From: Desulfovibrio sp. UCD-KL4C
Lineage (GTDB): Bacteria; Desulfobacterota; Desulfovibrionia; Desulfovibrionales; Desulfovibrionaceae
Reading direction: 5' to 3'
NCBI RefSeq assembly: GCF_006210265.1
Contig: NZ_VCNC01000005.1
Span: forward strand, 1 to 64,000
DNA: 64,000 bases
The position numbers and the translations under genes are program-made. The notes under the pieces are model-generated. The model made no database searches, had not been told where the DNA came from, and worked only from the letters and a program-made list of their open reading frames with translations. Below are positions 54,373-64,000 of this stretch, piece by piece. Each line of letters opens with the position of its first letter. Positions within the stretch are counted from its first letter, which is position 1.

Positions 54373-57054
54373 ATGGGCATTCCAGAATTTTTAGTCAATG
54401 TTGCAGTTGGTCTAGTTGCTAATGCTATCTCTTCTACTGAGCAATTTAAGAAATTAAGTTTTTTTGATAAAGAGAAAATTAACGCTCATGTAAAAAAGAC
54501 TGTAATTGGTACTGTCGAACCAATGATTCCATTTCTAGATGATGAAAAAATTTCAAATGAAGATCAAAAAATTCTTATCGATGTCTCCTCCAAAGAATTA
54601 GAGCCTTTTGCAAAAGATTCAAAGAAATTGTTTGAAAATTCATTAGATGGTCAAAAACTTTTTGATTATTTGTACAAAGACGAATTACCTGCGCGTATTG
54701 TGGAAAGAAAGCTAGAGGTAATATACGCTCGAATTTTTCCACTTATAGCTACTGTTTTATGTACTGTTCCTCCTGCAGTTAAAGACTGGGATGCTAATGT
54801 AGCTAAAAGTACTTTTGATAAACTTGACGACATTGAAGACAGGGTTAGTTCCTTAATCTCTGATCTTAATGCTCAGAGCAAAGCCAAAGCTGATTTAAAA
54901 GATGACTTATTCAGAGATATTCTTAACGACAAAAACCAACGTCTAAAGATGGATATAGACCTCTCTGGTTTGCGAGCAGATTTTGTTTATACAGGAGCAA
55001 TTGAGGATTTTTTTGTTCATCCCGAAATTGAGTATTATGATTCAGAAAAAAGAGAAGTACTGATTAGGGAGCCTGAGGACTCATTAGGGAATTTGGTTAA
55101 GGAAGGGGTGTGTTCGATTGTTTATGGAGATCCCGGCGCCGGAAAATCAACTTGGACAAAATGGTTAGAGGGACAAATCTTTAGTTCAGACTGGAATGGA
55201 TTGCCTATAAGATTTGAGTTTAGAGCAAATTCAACCAAAGCAGAGTTACCAAGTGTTCATGATTTAGTGCGATCTAAATTGTCGACTCATTTCAGAGAAG
55301 ATGCAACTTCGGGGAAAATAAGAGATTGGTTATCTAAAAAAGATGTTCTGTTTATTTTGGATGGATTTGATGAAATTCCTCCATCACGAAGAGAAGAGTT
55401 TTGCGACTGGATTGTTGGTTTGAGATGCGGTTCTGCAGAGTGTCCTATTGTGATAACATCGCGTGAATTGACAACAAATCATCTAGAGCGATTGGGTCAA
55501 GGTTGGACTACTTGGCATATTAAGCCCTTTGATGAGGATAGAATTCAGAAATATATTAAGTTGTGGCACGATAAGATGCCTCTATTAAGTGATGTAATAA
55601 AGAAAGATAACTCTGATCAACTTGCGAAAGAGTTATCTTCAGATCCAGTTGTTAAACCTTTGACCTCTAATCCTTTGTTGCTTTCTACTTTGCTAATGAT
55701 ACACCATCTAGATGGTAGACTTCCAGATGGAAGGGCTCAGCTTTATGCTCGTTATGTTGATGGTATGCTTGGAGGATGGGATAGCAGGCGTGATGTTAAA
55801 GGGGATGATCTTGAAATTTCCCTTCATGAAAAGAAACAAATTTTAACAAAAATTGCATTACACTTTCATTTGAATGAAATTGAACAAGTTGATGAGGATA
55901 AGGTTCTGACTGTCATTAATGACTGCTTGCATGATATGAATCTTAATAAATGCCCAGAATCTATTTTGTCATCTCTATGTGAGAGGTCTGGCTTAATTGT
56001 TGGTCCCGGCATATATAATTTCGCTCATAAGAGTGTGAGCGAGTATCTTGTTGCTGCTGCTGCAGTACAGGGGAATATGTATGATCATGACCAGAAAAGA
56101 ATTGATAGACTCAGACTTTATGAAAGTAGAGATGATGATAGGTGGAATGTAGTTATTTTTTTATGGGCTGGTCTTGCTCCTGTCGCAGATGTTGAGGCTT
56201 TTGTATCTTTGTGTATGGATGAAAAGTGTTTTTCCTTAGGGCTGGGAGTTCTATTGGATCAGTTGTCAAGGTTCGATAATAAAACAAAACAAAATCTTAT
56301 ATTAAAAGTTTTAAAGCAAGATCTAAATTTAAAAAGTGATAGTGAGCGTTTTGTGTATGATGGTCCTGGAAGTTTAAGAGACGAGATTGGTCAGCTATAT
56401 ATCCCTGAGTTAGGTATTCGATCTGTTTCTGGTAAAGGTCGTGCTTTTAGTGTCTTTGACGAGAACAATGTTACTAAGTTGTTTGGATTGGATGAGTATA
56501 GGGATATAACTGACCAGAATTTAAGAAAATTGGTTTGGATTTCTTTGATTATGCAAGATTGTCCAATTGAGGACTGGAACAAATGTCTAGATGTTATGCC
56601 CGTTTTTGTTAAAGAATCACTTGTTTGGATGGTCTGGCTTGCAGGAATGAGTCTTCGTTTGTCTGTAAGAAATAAATTGAGATACAATGATAGCTATGCT
56701 CATGCTTTTGAAGAATGCTCTCCCTTGTGTAATGGCTTCTTATTGGTGGCATTGCTAAGTTATTTTAATAGAGATGTACTTTCAGAGTTTCCGATAGTTT
56801 TTGCAAAATATTACCCTTTATATTTAGAGTACTTGTGTGAAATTAAAGATACTTCAATTCATTCTTCATTATTGTCTGAAACAGTAAGCTGGCACAATGA
56901 AGTTGGTTCTACAGGAAATTTTGATTTGTTGGTTGAATGTAAAAAATTTTTAGAAGAAAATAGTGGAGTTCGGCTTGAAGTCGCATTAGCTAGTAGGGGC
57001 ATTGAAATAGTTAATACACTTATAGAAGAGAGAAGTACGCTTATGGAAGGTTAA
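54373..57054 (+). CDS. NACHT-family NTPase, probable NLR-like anti-phage protein
   Basis: 893 residues. The N-terminal 235 residues match no domain I know and start with a short hydrophobic segment (FLVNVAVGLVANAI). The NTPase follows: Walker A GDPGAGKST (252-260), Walker B LFILDGFDEIP (326-336), sensor ITSRE, then a helical part ending in FAHKSVSEYLVA (550-561), the motif typical of NACHT proteins. The last 330 residues have no recognisable repeats. Bacterial NACHT proteins are phage sensors that activate an effector; here no effector domain is visible. Good ribosome site (GAGGAG). Located in the element beside tRNA-Arg. Confidence 0.85.
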   Translation: MGIPEFLVNVAVGLVANAISSTEQFKKLSFFDKEKINAHVKKTVIGTVEPMIPFLDDEKISNEDQKILIDVSSKELEPFAKDSKKLFENSLDGQKLFDYLYKDELPARIVERKLEVIYARIFPLIATVLCTVPPAVKDWDANVAKSTFDKLDDIEDRVSSLISDLNAQSKAKADLKDDLFRDILNDKNQRLKMDIDLSGLRADFVYTGAIEDFFVHPEIEYYDSEKREVLIREPEDSLGNLVKEGVCSIVYGDPGAGKSTWTKWLEGQIFSSDWNGLPIRFEFRANSTKAELPSVHDLVRSKLSTHFREDATSGKIRDWLSKKDVLFILDGFDEIPPSRREEFCDWIVGLRCGSAECPIVITSRELTTNHLERLGQGWTTWHIKPFDEDRIQKYIKLWHDKMPLLSDVIKKDNSDQLAKELSSDPVVKPLTSNPLLLSTLLMIHHLDGRLPDGRAQLYARYVDGMLGGWDSRRDVKGDDLEISLHEKKQILTKIALHFHLNEIEQVDEDKVLTVINDCLHDMNLNKCPESILSSLCERSGLIVGPGIYNFAHKSVSEYLVAAAAVQGNMYDHDQKRIDRLRLYESRDDDRWNVVIFLWAGLAPVADVEAFVSLCMDEKCFSLGLGVLLDQLSRFDNKTKQNLILKVLKQDLNLKSDSERFVYDGPGSLRDEIGQLYIPELGIRSVSGKGRAFSVFDENNVTKLFGLDEYRDITDQNLRKLVWISLIMQDCPIEDWNKCLDVMPVFVKESLVWMVWLAGMSLRLSVRNKLRYNDSYAHAFEECSPLCNGFLLVALLSYFNRDVLSEFPIVFAKYYPLYLEYLCEIKDTSIHSSLLSETVSWHNEVGSTGNFDLLVECKKFLEENSGVRLEVALASRGIEIVNTLIEERSTLMEG

Positions 57055-58483: not shown

Positions 58484-58528
58484 CTTTACCTCCAGATTTA
58501 ATCATAAAGTATAGACGAGTATTCTTAG

Positions 58529-58761
58529 TTTAAAAATCGGGTGACAGGACTACTGAAGGAGTGGACATCTGCAATTAACCTGAAAGGAAACTACGGTGCT
58601 CATACTTTGAGAAAATTTTCTGTTACCAGCAACGAGTTAATTTCGGTGCATCATGGGAACTGTTGAGTAAGCGTTTGAATCATTCCAGTCCGAGTGTGAC
58701 CCGCCGTTATATCGGGGTACAGGACGAGGAAGTGGAATCCATACTGCTTAACAACATCTAA
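58529..58761 (+). pseudogene. Remnant of a tyrosine recombinase (phage-type integrase)
   Basis: Two adjacent frames together give the C-terminal part of a tyrosine recombinase: first EWTSAINLKGNYGAHTLRK (His and Arg of the catalytic set), then, after a shift near 58617, WELLSKRLNHSSPSVTRRY with the catalytic Tyr, ending DEEVESILLNNI at a stop. The N-terminal core is missing and the junction is frameshifted, so the gene is dead. Part of the element beside tRNA-Arg. Confidence 0.8.
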
Positions 58762-59578
58762 AACTGGCAATTCAGTTAACATTTTTTCTGAGAAAATATC
58801 CTGATCCTAATACACCCGTTGTATTCTAGGGGGTACTGGGCTGTCAGATCCACAAGTTCAGCCATGGTCATTGTGTGCTAATATATTAGATCTAAAATTA
58901 TTCGTATGCGAGATTTTTATTATGTTAGAATGACCGAGGGATTAGCATATCGTGTGTCTTTTCCGGGTAGTAAAAGATTGCGGATGTCCATGAAGGATTG
59001 ACTCTGGAAAGAGTGATGATGTTGATAGAAGGAGCAGACGGTTAATTACAGCATAAACATTTTTGAGGTAGATAGAGTGGTTTGGCTTGTGAAAAAAACT
59101 TCTTCTGGAACCAATGTGTTATGGAAGAAGTTTTTTGTTGTATGCTAATTGAAAGTGATAAGATTATTCTAAAGAAAATTATCGCTTGCGGTGCTGAGGA
59201 CCCTGTTGAACCTATAGATGAAGTATAGACCTTAAAGGATAAGCAACCCCTTACCCTCAAAAAGTCGTGGTAAATTTACTGCGACTTTTTACTTGGCCTT
59301 GTGAGTGCGATGTACGGCCCCTTGAAATTTATAAATCTTGATTGCTTGCGTGTGTGGATTCGTCCGGCAATATTCTCTACACGCTGAAGAGTGACGGTGT
59401 TCGTTGTTTATAGAGTACTTCACTTATCAAGTTATTACTCATGGTTATAATTTGTGTTTTTATTGAAAATAATCAATAATTAATTTTCAATATTTCAAAT
59501 TTTTGTTCAAAAATTATATTATAAAGCTAATATGCCATTTTTTGAAGAGTTGTATTGTAAATAATTGGGGGAGAGGCT
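58762..59578. other. Spacer with two terminator-like hairpins, no clear gene
   Basis: About 800 bases with no supported gene. AAAAAACTTCTTC / GAAGAAGTTTTTT forms a stem at 59093-59136 with a loop of 18; AAAAAGTCG / CGACTTTTT with an inner GTAAATTTAC forms another at 59259-59290. The last 170 bases are very AT-rich and probably hold the promoter of the glycosyltransferase gene. Confidence 0.5.
59259..59290. terminator. Intrinsic terminator at the right end of the element
   Basis: Nine-base arms AAAAAGTCG / CGACTTTTT around a palindromic GTAAATTTAC, A-rich left and T-rich right, so it may act in both directions. Confidence 0.7.
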
Positions 59579-60391
59579 TTGCCAAATTATCGGATTAGGT
59601 GTTGTGTCCTAGTAGCAACGTTAGGGCGAAGTGATAAGTTTTTGAAAAGAGCCATACCATCGATTCAATGCCAATCAGTAAAACCAGAAGCTGTAGTTAT
59701 CGTATGTGATGGGAAACCGTTTGGCCCAGAAATCTGTGCAAAAATTAAAAACTTGCTCCTAAATATCCCTGTGTTTTTTTTAGCGAACACAAGGACCCCT
59801 GGTGTAGCAGGTGCTTGGAATTCTGGTCTTCTTTTCTTGAGGGAAAACATAAATGCTGAGTATGTCGCATTGTTAGATGATGATGACAGCTGGGATAATA
59901 ATCATCTGTATTTAAACCTCACTTCTGCCCAAAAAAATGATTCAAACGTTGTTGTTTCAGGTCTCAGAATTGTGAAAGATGGCGTTCCTGTCGAGTGTGA
60001 CATTATTACTTCACTAAATGAAAATAACTTTTTGATTGGAAATCCAGGATGGCAGGGGTCAAATACATTTATTAGCGTAGATTTACTATTTCTAGTCGGT
60101 GATTTTCGTGAAGGTTTGGCTAGTTTAAATGATAGAGATTTAGCCATTAGAGTTATTCGGCATCCACAATGCAAAATATCATATACAGGTTCTTGGTCAG
60201 CTACATGGTATTTAACAACAAAAGGCAATCAACTAAGCTCATTTCGAAACAGCAATAAAATAAGTGGATTAAGATCCTTTTGGGGAATTTACAGAGACGA
60301 TATGAGCGAGGCTATTCAGAGGAAATTCTTTTCTCGAGCTGAAAAGTTATTTGGGGTGCCAAAACAGGAAATAACAATTTATGATAAATAA
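59579..60391 (+). CDS. Family-2 glycosyltransferase
   Basis: 270 residues from a TTG start with GGGGGAG upstream. GT-A fold: CCVLVATLGR at the start, VVIVCDG, TRTPGVAGAWNSG and the metal-binding ALLDDDDSW (Asp100-103), then a C-terminal region ending in a helix. It probably transfers a sugar to a lipid- or polymer-linked acceptor at the inner membrane. First of three overlapping or closely spaced plus-strand genes. Confidence 0.85.
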   Translation: MPNYRIRCCVLVATLGRSDKFLKRAIPSIQCQSVKPEAVVIVCDGKPFGPEICAKIKNLLLNIPVFFLANTRTPGVAGAWNSGLLFLRENINAEYVALLDDDDSWDNNHLYLNLTSAQKNDSNVVVSGLRIVKDGVPVECDIITSLNENNFLIGNPGWQGSNTFISVDLLFLVGDFREGLASLNDRDLAIRVIRHPQCKISYTGSWSATWYLTTKGNQLSSFRNSNKISGLRSFWGIYRDDMSEAIQRKFFSRAEKLFGVPKQEITIYDK

Positions 60392-61262
60392 AAAACAAAC
60401 TCTCAGTGGTTTTCCTCCTAAGCCCTTTATCATGAAATTTAAGCCAGTTGAAAAGCAATGGTATAAAGTTAAAAAGGCATACCGGTCCTTACGTGTAAAA
60501 AAATATCCGACATTTATTTTCGGACCCCAGTATAAAAGAAGTAGGGATTGTATCGAGATTGACATTACTTACCGCTGCAATTTGAGATGTCTGAATTGTA
60601 ATAGATCTATCAACAAGGCCCCTGAAAATCTTGATATAAGCTTAGCTATGATTGATAATTTTGTGTCAGATTCATTGATTCGAAATATTCATTGGAAACG
60701 CATTCGAATCTTAGGAGGAGAACCTACATTACATCCTCATTTTGTAAGCATAGTGAAGAAAATTTTGAAATATAGAGATTCTATGGGACGGGGAAATGTA
60801 AGTATCGAAGTTGTAACGAATGGACATGGAAGCTATGTACAGAAACAACTTAATAGCCTGCCAAGTGATGTTTACATTGAAAATTCAAAGAAAACCCCAC
60901 AGGAAAAATTAAAATTTAGGCCTTTTAGTTGGGCCCCTCAAGACTTTGGACAATATTCAAACAATTCATATGTAAACGGCTGCCAGATCATGAAATTATG
61001 CGGAATGGGCTTAACCCCTATGGGATATTATCCTTGTGCAATTTCTGGAGGAATTGATCGAATTGCCAAAAAACAATGCGGAAGAAATAAAATACCAACA
61101 TTTGATGATGATATGAAAGATATCTTAGAATGGGCTTGCTCTCTTTGCGGACGATTTCTGGATGGTCACCATATTCCTCAAAAATTGTTGCTTCCACTAA
61201 CGGAAGAATTGATATCTCCAAGTTGGGTTAAATTATATCAGGATTGGCAAACAAAAAAATAA
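60381..61262 (+). CDS. Radical SAM protein with extra C-terminal cysteines
   Basis: 293 residues. The cluster motif is C66-x3-C70-x2-C73 (CNLRCLNC) and GGEPTLHP follows. The C-terminal half has further Cys (CQIMKLCGMG, YYPCAISGG, QCGRN, ACSLCGRF) that could hold an auxiliary Fe-S cluster. The start overlaps the glycosyltransferase end by 11 bases. Position in a sugar cluster suggests it modifies a sugar or a carrier. Confidence 0.85.
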   Translation: MINKKQTLSGFPPKPFIMKFKPVEKQWYKVKKAYRSLRVKKYPTFIFGPQYKRSRDCIEIDITYRCNLRCLNCNRSINKAPENLDISLAMIDNFVSDSLIRNIHWKRIRILGGEPTLHPHFVSIVKKILKYRDSMGRGNVSIEVVTNGHGSYVQKQLNSLPSDVYIENSKKTPQEKLKFRPFSWAPQDFGQYSNNSYVNGCQIMKLCGMGLTPMGYYPCAISGGIDRIAKKQCGRNKIPTFDDDMKDILEWACSLCGRFLDGHHIPQKLLLPLTEELISPSWVKLYQDWQTKK

Positions 61263-61278
61263 ATGTGGTATTTTTATT

Positions 61279-64000
61279 ATGACTCTTTTTAATCACAAAG
61301 AACCTATTACTTTGCGCAAACGGCTAACACCAAGAAATATTAACGTGCGCCGATGGCCGCAACAAATTAAATTATATGATGCAGACTTAATTGTAGGAGT
61401 TACTGTTCACAATAATGCAGATTCAATTAAGCGCTGCCTGCAAAGCATATTGAATCAAACAGAGCAATTTCCAGTAATTATATTGGATGATTCATCCTCT
61501 GACGATTGGTTTGATCGTTGTGCAGATTTAATTAACAGAATCGATATTCTCGTCTTAAGTGCTCACTGTGGTTCTGCTGCCAGTGCTCGAAATGCTATAC
61601 TAGATTATGTAGAAACTGAATTTTCTAATGTTCGATGGGTTGCTAGGCTTGATGCAGATGACAGGCTTTCCTTCAAAAATTCACTTATTGCAATGCGAGA
61701 CGCTGCAAGGAAAAATGATTCAAAATATGTTTTAGGTGGGAATAGGCTTGTTAAACAAGGTAAACTACTGGCGTGTAATAATCCTGCAACCAATTCCTTG
61801 AAAAAAAACTCGTTCTTGATAAATTTACTTAAAAAAATGGCTCAGGGAACAGCAAGCAATGAAATCCCCTCTTGCAACTTACTCATAGCCCCTTCCGCTG
61901 GATGGCGTTATCCTGAAATTAAAAGCGCAGAAGACCATTGGCTTGTTACCAGCTTACTGATTTTTCATCCTGAGGATGGGAGCATCGTCGATGACGTGTA
62001 TTACGCGGATTATACGTTACAAGGCTCCGTGACGATTGCATGTAAACAAAATGGGCTTGCAAAACAATATAGAGAACAATTGTTTCAAGCTGCTAAGTTG
62101 TGGATCTCCTTAAAAAACGGAGTTAATGAAATTCTTGGATTTGGCTGTGAAGGAATTGTTGTTCGCCAAGGCACACAAGTAGAAAAGCATTTTTATCCAT
62201 GGGCCATAAATGATGAAGATGTAGAGTACATAAGTAATAAAAGCCATGAATCAAAAATATTGCCCGATGTTAATTTTGTAAAAAAAAATAATAAATGGAT
62301 TGCAATATACACATTTCAAAAGTCATTTCCAGTAATTACTATAACAATCAAAGAGTCTCTTTATATTTTAAAAGAATTTTTAAATAAAAATTTTGTATGC
62401 AAAAACATATCTCGTTCAAATTTTAGAAGGATTTATGATGGTAGTTTGGTCTACATTGACATTGGGGTTTCTATATCTGAAATGGATATTTCGTACTTTA
62501 GAGATGTTGCTGCCAGAATGTATGCAATTTCAGCATTGAATTTGTCTTCAAGAGAGCTAAAAAGACGTTATACAAAAGAAAGGCAAATTGAAATATTAAG
62601 TAAATTAATTGGTTTTGAAGAATTTTACAAAGAATTAATTGAAAATCATATCAAAATGATATGGAAGAAATGCAAAATAAAAACAAGTGTAGCACATAAA
62701 AATAGAGAAACAGACGTCAGCTTAATGATAAAAGTGTGCTCTATGGATGCAAATATTATTTACAATCAAGTCGCGCATATAGTTTCACAGCTTGAAATTC
62801 CTGCAAATTTTGATGAAAAAATAATATTAATTGATCCTTTTTCTGGTCCTTACCTTAGAGCGTATGATAAAAGTAACTACTCCAAGCTTATATCTGAAGT
62901 AAAAAGACTCTGTCTGGCTGGAATTGTTGACCGTTTTTTGATTGCCCCTAAAGATTGTACCAGAGTTGCAGATGTAAACAAGAGATGGTTCAATCTTGTC
63001 TGTGAAAAAACTCATAACTCCCAGAAGGTTCCTGTCACCCCCCAACTATGGGGATTTGACCAAGTCAAATCCCGATATTTATTACAGTGTGATGTAGATA
63101 TTTTGGTAGGGCGCCGTGATTTTTGTCACGACTATCTTTCTGAAATGATTGACGCACTTCAGTCGAGCGACGTTTTTGGAATTGGCTTTAATATTCCCCA
63201 CTCTCCAAATTCTCAAGATAAGACATATGATGCTTTACCGGGAGATTACGTGCCAGAGGTCCGTTGTGGATTGTTTGACTTGGATCGGCTGAAAGCCAAT
63301 AGGCCCTTTCCGAATTATATAGAAAATGGGTATTTAAAGCTGTCGTGGTATCGGTCTATCCAACGCTACCAACAAACATATGGCTTCAGATGTCTTCGTG
63401 GTGGTTCTCCCAGAACCTTTTATGTCCACCCTAATAACAATTGTAAAGCCGACAGTAATTTTTATGCGAAAGTACGAGATCTTATATCACAAGGGGTTGT
63501 TCCTTCGTTGCAATATGGACAATGGGACGTTAAAGGAAGCATAGAGGATTGGAAATATCCAGTGAGGAGTGAGAAGCTTGTTTTCCTTTTAAGAGGACGA
63601 AACACACCATTACACAAAGTTAATAGATGTATTTCTAGCCTTTTAATGCAGAGGGTACAGAATTTTGGCGTGATTCTAATCGATGATGCGTCGTCCATAG
63701 AGCATCAAAATAATCTGTATAGGGAATTTTCACGATTGAAAAGAGCCACTTTTGTTTGTAATACCACACGACTTGGGCATATTCAAAATACTATTTTTGC
63801 GATAAATCAAATTTGTACCAATAACGATACCCTAGTAGCAATATTAGACTTAGATGATGCGCTCATAGATAGAAATACAAGCCTGTTAATCGAAGAAAAG
63901 CACCAGCAAGGACATGATGTTATTTTGGGGGCGATGTATCGCCCCGACAAACCTTTAAAGGTTTATTTCCCTCACTTTGATGCCCCGCGTTCACACTTCG
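61279..64000 (+). CDS. Giant glycosyltransferase with embedded kinase-like domain (runs off the window)
   Basis: A frame open for 907 codons from the ATG at 61279 to the window end, so the 3' end is missing. Residues about 36-270 are a family-2 glycosyltransferase (IVGVTVHNN, LDDSSSDDW, RLDADDR). Residues about 280-445 look like a protein-kinase fold: GFGCEGIVV (287-295; GxGxxG), Lys303, then CKNISRSNF and VYIDIG (374-396); the catalytic HRD Asp is Asn376 and DFG is DIG. Residues about 478-750 are a second GT-A-like module with DVDIL (605-609). From 765 a third family-2 module begins (LIDDASS, AILDLDD). Third gene of the cluster, 16 bases after the radical SAM gene. Confidence 0.8.
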   Translation, partial: MTLFNHKEPITLRKRLTPRNINVRRWPQQIKLYDADLIVGVTVHNNADSIKRCLQSILNQTEQFPVIILDDSSSDDWFDRCADLINRIDILVLSAHCGSAASARNAILDYVETEFSNVRWVARLDADDRLSFKNSLIAMRDAARKNDSKYVLGGNRLVKQGKLLACNNPATNSLKKNSFLINLLKKMAQGTASNEIPSCNLLIAPSAGWRYPEIKSAEDHWLVTSLLIFHPEDGSIVDDVYYADYTLQGSVTIACKQNGLAKQYREQLFQAAKLWISLKNGVNEILGFGCEGIVVRQGTQVEKHFYPWAINDEDVEYISNKSHESKILPDVNFVKKNNKWIAIYTFQKSFPVITITIKESLYILKEFLNKNFVCKNISRSNFRRIYDGSLVYIDIGVSISEMDISYFRDVAARMYAISALNLSSRELKRRYTKERQIEILSKLIGFEEFYKELIENHIKMIWKKCKIKTSVAHKNRETDVSLMIKVCSMDANIIYNQVAHIVSQLEIPANFDEKIILIDPFSGPYLRAYDKSNYSKLISEVKRLCLAGIVDRFLIAPKDCTRVADVNKRWFNLVCEKTHNSQKVPVTPQLWGFDQVKSRYLLQCDVDILVGRRDFCHDYLSEMIDALQSSDVFGIGFNIPHSPNSQDKTYDALPGDYVPEVRCGLFDLDRLKANRPFPNYIENGYLKLSWYRSIQRYQQTYGFRCLRGGSPRTFYVHPNNNCKADSNFYAKVRDLISQGVVPSLQYGQWDVKGSIEDWKYPVRSEKLVFLLRGRNTPLHKVNRCISSLLMQRVQNFGVILIDDASSIEHQNNLYREFSRLKRATFVCNTTRLGHIQNTIFAINQICTNNDTLVAILDLDDALIDRNTSLLIEEKHQQGHDVILGAMYRPDKPLKVYFPHFDAPRSHF

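Follow-up and report, generated by a model that had tools for sequence, protein, structure and literature searches.

At the end of the window analysed here, a 64,000-nucleotide stretch of Desulfovibrio sp. UCD-KL4C DNA (contig NZ_VCNC01000005.1, hereafter C5, positions 1 to 64,000 of the forward strand) from a genome of 3.9 Mb, a single open reading frame (ORF) joins a glycosyltransferase (GT) module of GT-A type, a kinase-like domain and two further GT-A modules. This fusion gene is the core of a small, horizontally mobile cassette that crosses distant bacteria, and its kinase-like domain carries Asn at the position of the catalytic Asp of the HRD motif in all 16 copies aligned. We lean, by a modest degree, towards the reading that the domain is a nucleotide-binding pseudokinase of the pattern published for HER3 and the JH2 domain of JAK2, and that it would position or switch the GT modules of the cassette's multi-GT enzyme rather than act as a phosphotransferase.

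The initial annotation of this DNA, made from the window alone, had described three GT-A-like modules in one frame with a kinase-like domain between the first and the second, and the 996-residue ORF and its predicted folds confirm this layout (Table 1). It had also proposed reading the downstream sequence and surveying other genomes for the same architecture. The frame is open from position 61279 through the end of the window and its stop codon lies 269 bases beyond, giving a complete ORF free of frame error. The survey yielded 15 relatives with the kinase-GT-GT core, so that the 16 copies compared here are that of the window, those of genomes G109 and G231, that of a Salinivibrio kushneri plasmid and 12 from a scan of species genomes. 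Kinase-like, middle and C-terminal modules were each found in 16/16 copies, the N-terminal module in 15/16, and the join between GT and kinase-like domain lies within one ORF in 13 of the 16. The ratio of nonsynonymous to synonymous substitution rates (dN/dS), obtained for six pairs, was 0.10–0.35 in every module of the fusion; with the core present in 15 relatives, these values make chance or a frame error an unlikely origin of the arrangement. A frame error that hides separate genes was ruled out by the continuous downstream reading and the alignment of relatives.

Three copies are built differently. The Myxococcus copy (L040, 8364–11554) is encoded by two overlapping ORFs split just 5′ of the glycine loop, either a natural split or a frameshift, and the fusion gene of a Zoogloea metagenome-assembled genome (MAG; L042, 3517–9254) is broken by an apparent IS21-type insertion, as read by eye. 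The chain of G231 is 1,734 residues long, with a different N-terminal part joined to it and a methyltransferase domain (Pfam Methyltransf_23, E 2.4e-13) directly after the kinase-like domain.

Structure prediction, which the initial annotation had named as a check on the kinase assignment, points to a bilobal protein-kinase fold for the kinase-like part. AlphaFold2 modelled residues 258–478 from a 13-row alignment with a mean predicted local distance difference test score (pLDDT) of 86.3 and a predicted template modelling score (pTM) of 0.80, the five models ranging from 85.4 to 86.3 in pLDDT. All 50 matches listed by Foldseek were kinases or proteins of kinase fold such as RNase L, and the same was true of the VIA matches. 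Among the matches listed, VIA placed RIO2 first (Z 11.7, root-mean-square deviation (rmsd) 5.5 over 172 residues), with PknI (Z 10.8, rmsd 3.8 over 178), PRPK (Z 10.3, rmsd 4.8 over 171) and, lower in the list, APH(2″)-Ia (Z 9.9, rmsd 4.0 over 165). HipA was absent from the Foldseek and VIA matches listed, which excludes nothing as no direct comparison with it was made. An hmmsearch of PDB sequences with a profile of the domain returned 127 matches at E up to 10 (best E 0.022), of which the best 60 were all protein kinases, and in two of the PDB alignments the Asn of the domain stands opposite the catalytic Asp of the kinases. Pfam gave no kinase match to the window's domain. For 13 members it offered no more than weak ABC1 matches (9/13, best E 0.0058), alongside unrelated families, and the kinase-like part of G231 matched Pkinase at E 0.051. 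Taken together, the invariant motifs, the profile matches and the predicted fold rule out a chance resemblance to kinases.

Within this domain the initial annotation had read a kept glycine loop, Lys and Asp of a DIG motif, together with Asn376 for the HRD Asp and Ser378 for the Lys that should follow it, and the alignment shows each of these residues to be correct (glycine loop 287–292, K303, N376, S378, N381 and D394 of DIG in the window protein). The glycines of the GxGxxG loop and the β3 Lys are kept in 16/16 copies, as are the Mg-binding Asn of the catalytic loop (N381) and the Asp and Gly of DxG. Of the 221 residues of the domain, 27 do not vary across the 13-row alignment; among them are the three loop glycines with the Val that follows, the β3 Lys, the Asn that stands for the HRD Asp, the Mg-binding Asn, the Asp and Gly of DxG and the Asp that opens the next helix. 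All ten ATP-site and core columns that had been preselected from general kinase knowledge are invariant (hypergeometric 1.4e-10, with the rows counted as if they were unrelated). As read from these alignments, the domain lacks the HRD Asp that marks an active protein or sugar kinase. The earlier suggestion of a pseudokinase or variant kinase is thereby strengthened on the pseudokinase side, given the Asn in every copy. The part of it that leaned on Ser378 does not hold for the family: 13/16 copies have Lys at position 378, the window and G109 share Ser there, and G231 has His, so that Ser378 is a lineage feature rather than a family trait. G231 further deviates by Ala at the loop Val, Pro at position 379 and Glu at the last Asp.

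The pattern has published parallels. HER3 and JAK2 JH2 likewise have Asn for the HRD Asp and keep the metal-binding Asn and Asp and the β3 Lys, and in both a nucleotide is nonetheless bound, together with one metal ion (PMC4718504). HER3 also lacks the αC Glu (PMC4718504). At the level of alignment columns, the helix after β3 in our family has none that is acidic in all 13 rows, the best reaching 8/13. These two are eukaryotic signalling proteins and not sugar enzymes, and we liken the domain to them by their published pattern, not by alignment. Among bacteria, the Ser/Thr pseudokinase family ActPs2 shares the Asn for the HRD Asp but differs in having mostly Arg for the β3 Lys and a deletion at DFG (PMC12599244); the word glycosyltransferase is absent from the main text of that review of bacterial pseudokinases.

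Several observations weigh against a nucleotide-binding pseudokinase. In the Foldseek comparison, TM-scores against solved kinases are low, near 0.4, and rmsd values large, so that closeness to any one kinase is not to be pressed; no single member of the family passes the Pfam threshold for a kinase; and some proteins classed as pseudokinases later proved active (PMC4718504). Five of the six pairs also show a higher dN/dS in the kinase part than in any of the other three modules (over all six pairs 0.16–0.35, against 0.10–0.22 in those modules), and the kinase part is 30–34% identical between lineages, against 39–52% for the middle module. It thus evolves faster than the neighbouring modules, yet its ATP site is held fixed. 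The same rates are what would be cited for a decaying, functionless relic, an idea we find barely credible since they stay well below 1 and the ATP site is invariant in 13 rows drawn from several phyla.

The GT modules were examined in the same way. Pfam found Glycos_transf_2 in two stretches of the fusion (best at residues 39–161, E 8.4e-23) and NCBIfam a GT2-type match at residues 781–885; the GT modules carry DxD motifs, and modules 1 and 3 are thus of the GT2 family and GT-A type by family profile and DxD. When the 15 fusions other than that of G231, the window's among them, were scanned with Pfam (L040 and L042 as pieces), Glycos_transf_2 was present in 15/15 and GT2-type families alone passed E 0.001. 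The middle module of the window protein has no significant Pfam match, unlike family 2 glycosyltransferases, and what the kinase and middle parts did match (Pfam Picorna_P3A, E 0.16; NCBIfam CT360, E 0.0039) fell below threshold and carries no meaning. A PDB profile search with the middle module returned nothing, and its GT-A identity is indicated by fold only: AlphaFold2 predicts a GT-A fold for residues 474–768 modelled alone from the 13-row alignment (pLDDT 89.5, pTM 0.89; five models 77.2–89.5), with a DxD within a C-D-x-D motif that is invariant in 13/13 rows. Of 50 Foldseek matches listed for this module, 46 are named glycosyltransferases or polysaccharide synthases and four are Mimivirus R699, the titles of which give no activity. 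The chondroitin polymerase K4CP heads the Foldseek matches listed, and GlcNAc-transferase I (Z 14.7, rmsd 3.8 over 199 residues) heads those of VIA, which agree with the GT-A fold. K4CP and other multi-GT chains resemble the fusion in joining GT-A modules in one protein, and we know of no kinase-fold insert in family 2 glycosyltransferases or in such chains.

Kinase domains that act on glycans offer the nearest functional comparison. The initial annotation had set the layout apart from that of WbdD and had known of no described protein in this order. The order does differ, but the association itself has a precedent: ORF6 of the Klebsiella pneumoniae O7 cluster combines, like the fusion, a hard-to-detect kinase-fold domain with GT2 modules in one chain and, like G231, has a methyltransferase beside the kinase domain (PMC11231755). 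Its modules run methyltransferase, kinase, carbohydrate-binding module (given in brackets), coiled coil and GT2 modules, whereas in the fusion a GT precedes the kinase-like domain; its kinase has a catalytic D441 where the fusion has Asn, and phosphorylates rhamnose (PMC11231755). WbdD of E. coli O9a and K. pneumoniae O3 is similar in that a kinase-fold domain is tied to glycan assembly, and differs in consisting of a methyltransferase and a kinase with a coiled-coil ruler and in recruiting a separate polymerase that holds the GT modules (PMC11231755). The gene set of the fusion also has a radical S-adenosylmethionine (SAM) protein and other partners, unlike that of ORF6.

The domain might alternatively be an active, atypical kinase in which another residue or substrate-assisted catalysis replaces the HRD Asp; it would then phosphorylate a sugar of the glycan under construction, much as WbdD and ORF6 cap their chains with (methyl)phosphate. 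Such a kinase would fit the conserved remainder of the ATP site, the phosphorylation of a terminal rhamnose by the methyltransferase, kinase and GT2 chain of ORF6 (PMC11231755), the methyltransferase domain of G231 and the methyltransferase ORFs that adjoin the cassette at loci L046 and L048. We nevertheless judge it unlikely. Every copy has Asn for the Asp, the catalytic loop holds no conserved acidic residue in the 13-row alignment, and in ORF6 the exchange D441A abolishes activity (PMC11231755). The 15 fusions other than that of G231 (L040 and L042 as pieces) have no Pfam methyltransferase match at E 0.001, and a tblastn search with the methyltransferases of L046 and L048, a narrow test, found no relative at the other 14 loci.

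The kinase fold might instead carry out another nucleotide reaction, such as nucleotidyl transfer or ATP hydrolysis, after the manner of the pseudokinase-like SelO and SidJ. Asn376 in 16/16 copies and Arg379 in 15/16, together with the conserved ATP site, give the impression of an active site that was kept but altered; the VIA matches include the small kinases RIO2, PRPK and APH; and SidJ, SdjA and SelO are named as examples of alternative chemistry in PMC12599244, the likeness to these being by description only. On the other hand, the window, G109 and G231 depart from the other copies at position 378, and we regard such chemistry as improbable, more so than an active sugar kinase.

The partners of the fusion gene bear on what the cassette may make. 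Upstream of it lie the genes for a separate GT2 protein, relatives of which occur at 16/16 loci (N-terminally fused in G231), and for the radical SAM protein, found at 8/16 loci. The radical SAM gene overlaps the GT2 gene and its stop codon lies 16 bases 5′ of the fusion start, and from this spacing we infer that the three genes form one operon; a promoter and terminator scan gave sites no more numerous than in shuffled sequences. At 11/16 loci (L038 and L041–L050) a gene on the reverse strand after the fusion gene, its 3′ end overlapping the latter, encodes a partner of about 260 residues (~253–270, one called longer) with GNG and FN motifs. The radical SAM protein, this partner or both were found at 15/16 loci, G231 alone having neither. 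The rest of the window's genome yielded no ~260-residue partner. Pfam matched none of the members searched, 3 of 11, and a PDB profile of the partner likewise gave nothing. Its GNGP…RFNQ pattern is reminiscent of sialyltransferases; Pfam and the PDB profile lent this likeness no support, and the partner is left unclassified.

Mobility of the cassette is evident from its surroundings. The block shared with G109, a genome of the window's genus, has unrelated flanks, and outside it the window's genome and G109 gave no blastn match at E 1e-5 over the 18 and 19 kb compared. In G109 the block comes after an intact relaxase gene (Pfam), the 3′ end of which survives directly 5′ of the block in the window, and 0.6 kb further upstream of this remnant lies a broken tyrosine recombinase, the homologous ORF of which in genome G153 is a Pfam Phage_integrase match (E 6.8e-19). 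Transposases lie near the Salinivibrio and G231 copies. Both remnants fall in a 1.1-kb stretch of the window (58484–59578) that has no ORF of 80 residues. About 1.2 kb after the cassette, a reverse-strand RHS/YD-repeat protein of 603 residues is encoded (L002, 7462–9273). Some 21 kb past the window, C5:85092–90475 (L003:9092–14475) holds a second set of fused glycan-type genes, namely a nucleotidyltransferase-aminotransferase fusion of 634 residues, a methyltransferase and a sulfatase-GT2 fusion of 889 residues with two GT2 stretches.

Table 1 Coordinates of the fusion ORF, its modules and motifs, the partner genes and the traces of transfer (all on the forward strand; contig numbering)
Feature	Position	Strand	Basis
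Fusion ORF, GT-A / kinase-like / GT-A / GT-A, 996 residues	61279..64269 on contig (window part 61279..64000)	+	ORF and downstream sequence
N-terminal GT-A module (GT2), residues ~35-250; LDADD (DxD) 124-128, SAEDHW 216-221	61381..62028	+	Pfam Glycos_transf_2
Kinase-like domain with N-terminal helix, residues 258-478 (predicted fold)	62050..62712	+	AlphaFold2, Foldseek, VIA, hmmsearch of PDB
Glycine loop GFGCEGIV, residues 287-294	62137..62160	+	alignment
β3 Lys303 (in VEKHF)	62185..62187	+	alignment
Catalytic loop NISRSN, residues 376-381: Asn376 for HRD Asp, Ser378 for Lys, Asn381 kept	62404..62421	+	alignment
DIG, DFG equivalent, residues 394-396	62458..62466	+	alignment
Middle GT-A module (predicted fold), residues 476-765; CDVD 604-607	62704..63573	+	AlphaFold2, Foldseek, VIA
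C-terminal GT-A module (GT2), residues 766-996; LDLDD 856-860; extends beyond window	63574..64000	+	Pfam, NCBIfam
Partner GT2, 270 residues	59579..60391	+	Pfam Glycos_transf_2, E 7.5e-10
Radical SAM protein, 293 residues; CxxxCxxC and conserved C-terminal Cys	60381..61262	+	Pfam Radical_SAM, E 1e-8
Transferred block, 4,934 bp, 94% identical to G109, flanks unrelated	59394..64326 on contig (window part to 64000)	+	blastn
Relaxase 3′-end remnant, 40 bp, directly 5′ of block	59354..59393	+	VDSSGNILYTLKSDG versus VDSSGNVLYTLKSGG of the intact G109 relaxase ORF; DNA match
Tyrosine recombinase remnant, broken, C-terminal part	58538..58758	+	tblastn with homologous G153 ORF, two pieces, 90 and 96%

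The relatives come from Planctomycetota, Myxococcus, Rhodocyclales, Vibrionaceae, Rheinheimera and two more genomes of the window's family. Among 297 genomes of the order, three had a match: that of the window, G109 with the close copy (93% over the searched part) and G231, a member of the window's family, with the longer, distant copy. The copy on S. kushneri plasmid NZ_CP114591 (39% over 97%) was the sole one in 72,556 plasmid records. Scanning of 84,980 species genomes gave at least 12 further copies, a lower bound since two short peptide patterns were used: one each in a Planctomycetota MAG, Myxococcus, Rhodocyclus, another of the Rhodocyclales and Rheinheimera, two in Zoogloea, three in Vibrio and two in Photobacterium. 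For a phage origin, 50,697 phage records gave no match, and none of the 46 and 51 pattern matches from two scans of viral contigs was confirmed. Beyond the window itself, a hidden Markov model search of 297 genomes of the phylum yielded six matches, all weak and none better than E 0.0028; five of them cover little beyond the catalytic loop. Matches listed at E up to 1 in 30 other genomes were weak too, the best at 0.0047. A tree built on the two C-terminal modules separates the 11 beta- and gammaproteobacterial copies (support 100/99) from the window pair, Planctomycetota, Myxococcus and G231, among which it resolves no order; the G231 branch is very long. By plain alignment of the same two-module region, the Planctomycetota copy is 50% identical to the window and that of G231 34%, though G231 is in the window's family.

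A further conceivable role is that of an anti-phage or competition module that travels in islands rich in defence genes, its glycan masking a receptor or modifying a cytosolic target. Nine of 13 neighbour proteins, at 7/16 loci, match PADLOC models, a count from neighbours picked by eye and without a background rate; the specific matches are BREX PglZ and BrxL (L042), a type I methyltransferase and a PtuA-like ATPase (L048), PDC-S06 (G109) and PDC-S26 (L039), with weaker or less specific ones at L043, L045 and L047. Upstream in the window itself, 54373–57054 encodes an 893-residue NACHT protein (Pfam E 1e-13). Neither this protein (at 1e-5) nor three others of the picked neighbours match a PADLOC model. 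The fusion, the GT2 and the ~260-residue protein match no PADLOC model at E 0.001, and the radical SAM protein matches pVip (viperin; E 1.6e-9) over residues 58–149 only, which is the shared radical SAM core. A defence role for the cassette is, to our judgement, very improbable.

Under the reading that we prefer, that of a nucleotide-binding pseudokinase within a multi-GT enzyme, the cassette would assemble a glycan or glycoconjugate in the cytoplasm, the three GT-A modules of the fusion working alongside the separate GT2. With these four modules, up to four sequential sugar transfers are possible, should all of them be active. The pair of enzymes may build a short glycan on a lipid, a protein or a small molecule; cytoplasmic enzymes fit the four GT-A modules, their DxD motifs and the lack of a membrane-like stretch, as the 19-residue hydrophobicity mean peaks at 1.68 across the 16 fusions or parts used and no long hydrophobic stretch was seen. 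The kinase-fold domain between GT modules 1 and 2 would hold a nucleotide, putatively ATP, and position or switch the GT modules, and the radical SAM protein and/or the ~260-residue partner probably tailor the product or the acceptor. More tentatively, we propose as a possibility that the domain represents an undescribed pseudokinase family inside a multi-glycosyltransferase, serving as a switch that responds to ATP or nucleotide sugars or performing a non-phosphorylating reaction, in a mobile cassette that adds a new surface or intracellular glycan. A search of the literature, in which few subscription journals were covered, returned no account of a glycosyltransferase and pseudokinase arrangement, with or without radical SAM, which is weak evidence of novelty.

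The arrangement suggests an unexplored way to control or complete sugar-chain assembly. Most of what is known of pseudokinases concerns switches in signalling; here one such domain, its active site invariantly altered, sits in a sugar-assembling enzyme across distant bacteria. If the domain does gate the GT modules, the fusion would provide a simple model of a catalysis-free kinase fold controlling an enzyme in the same chain, and if it proves active, it would be a natural bacterial exception to the rule that requires the HRD Asp. The cassette, in which a radical SAM protein and an unclassified partner accompany four GT modules, is also a compact set in which to find a new glycan.

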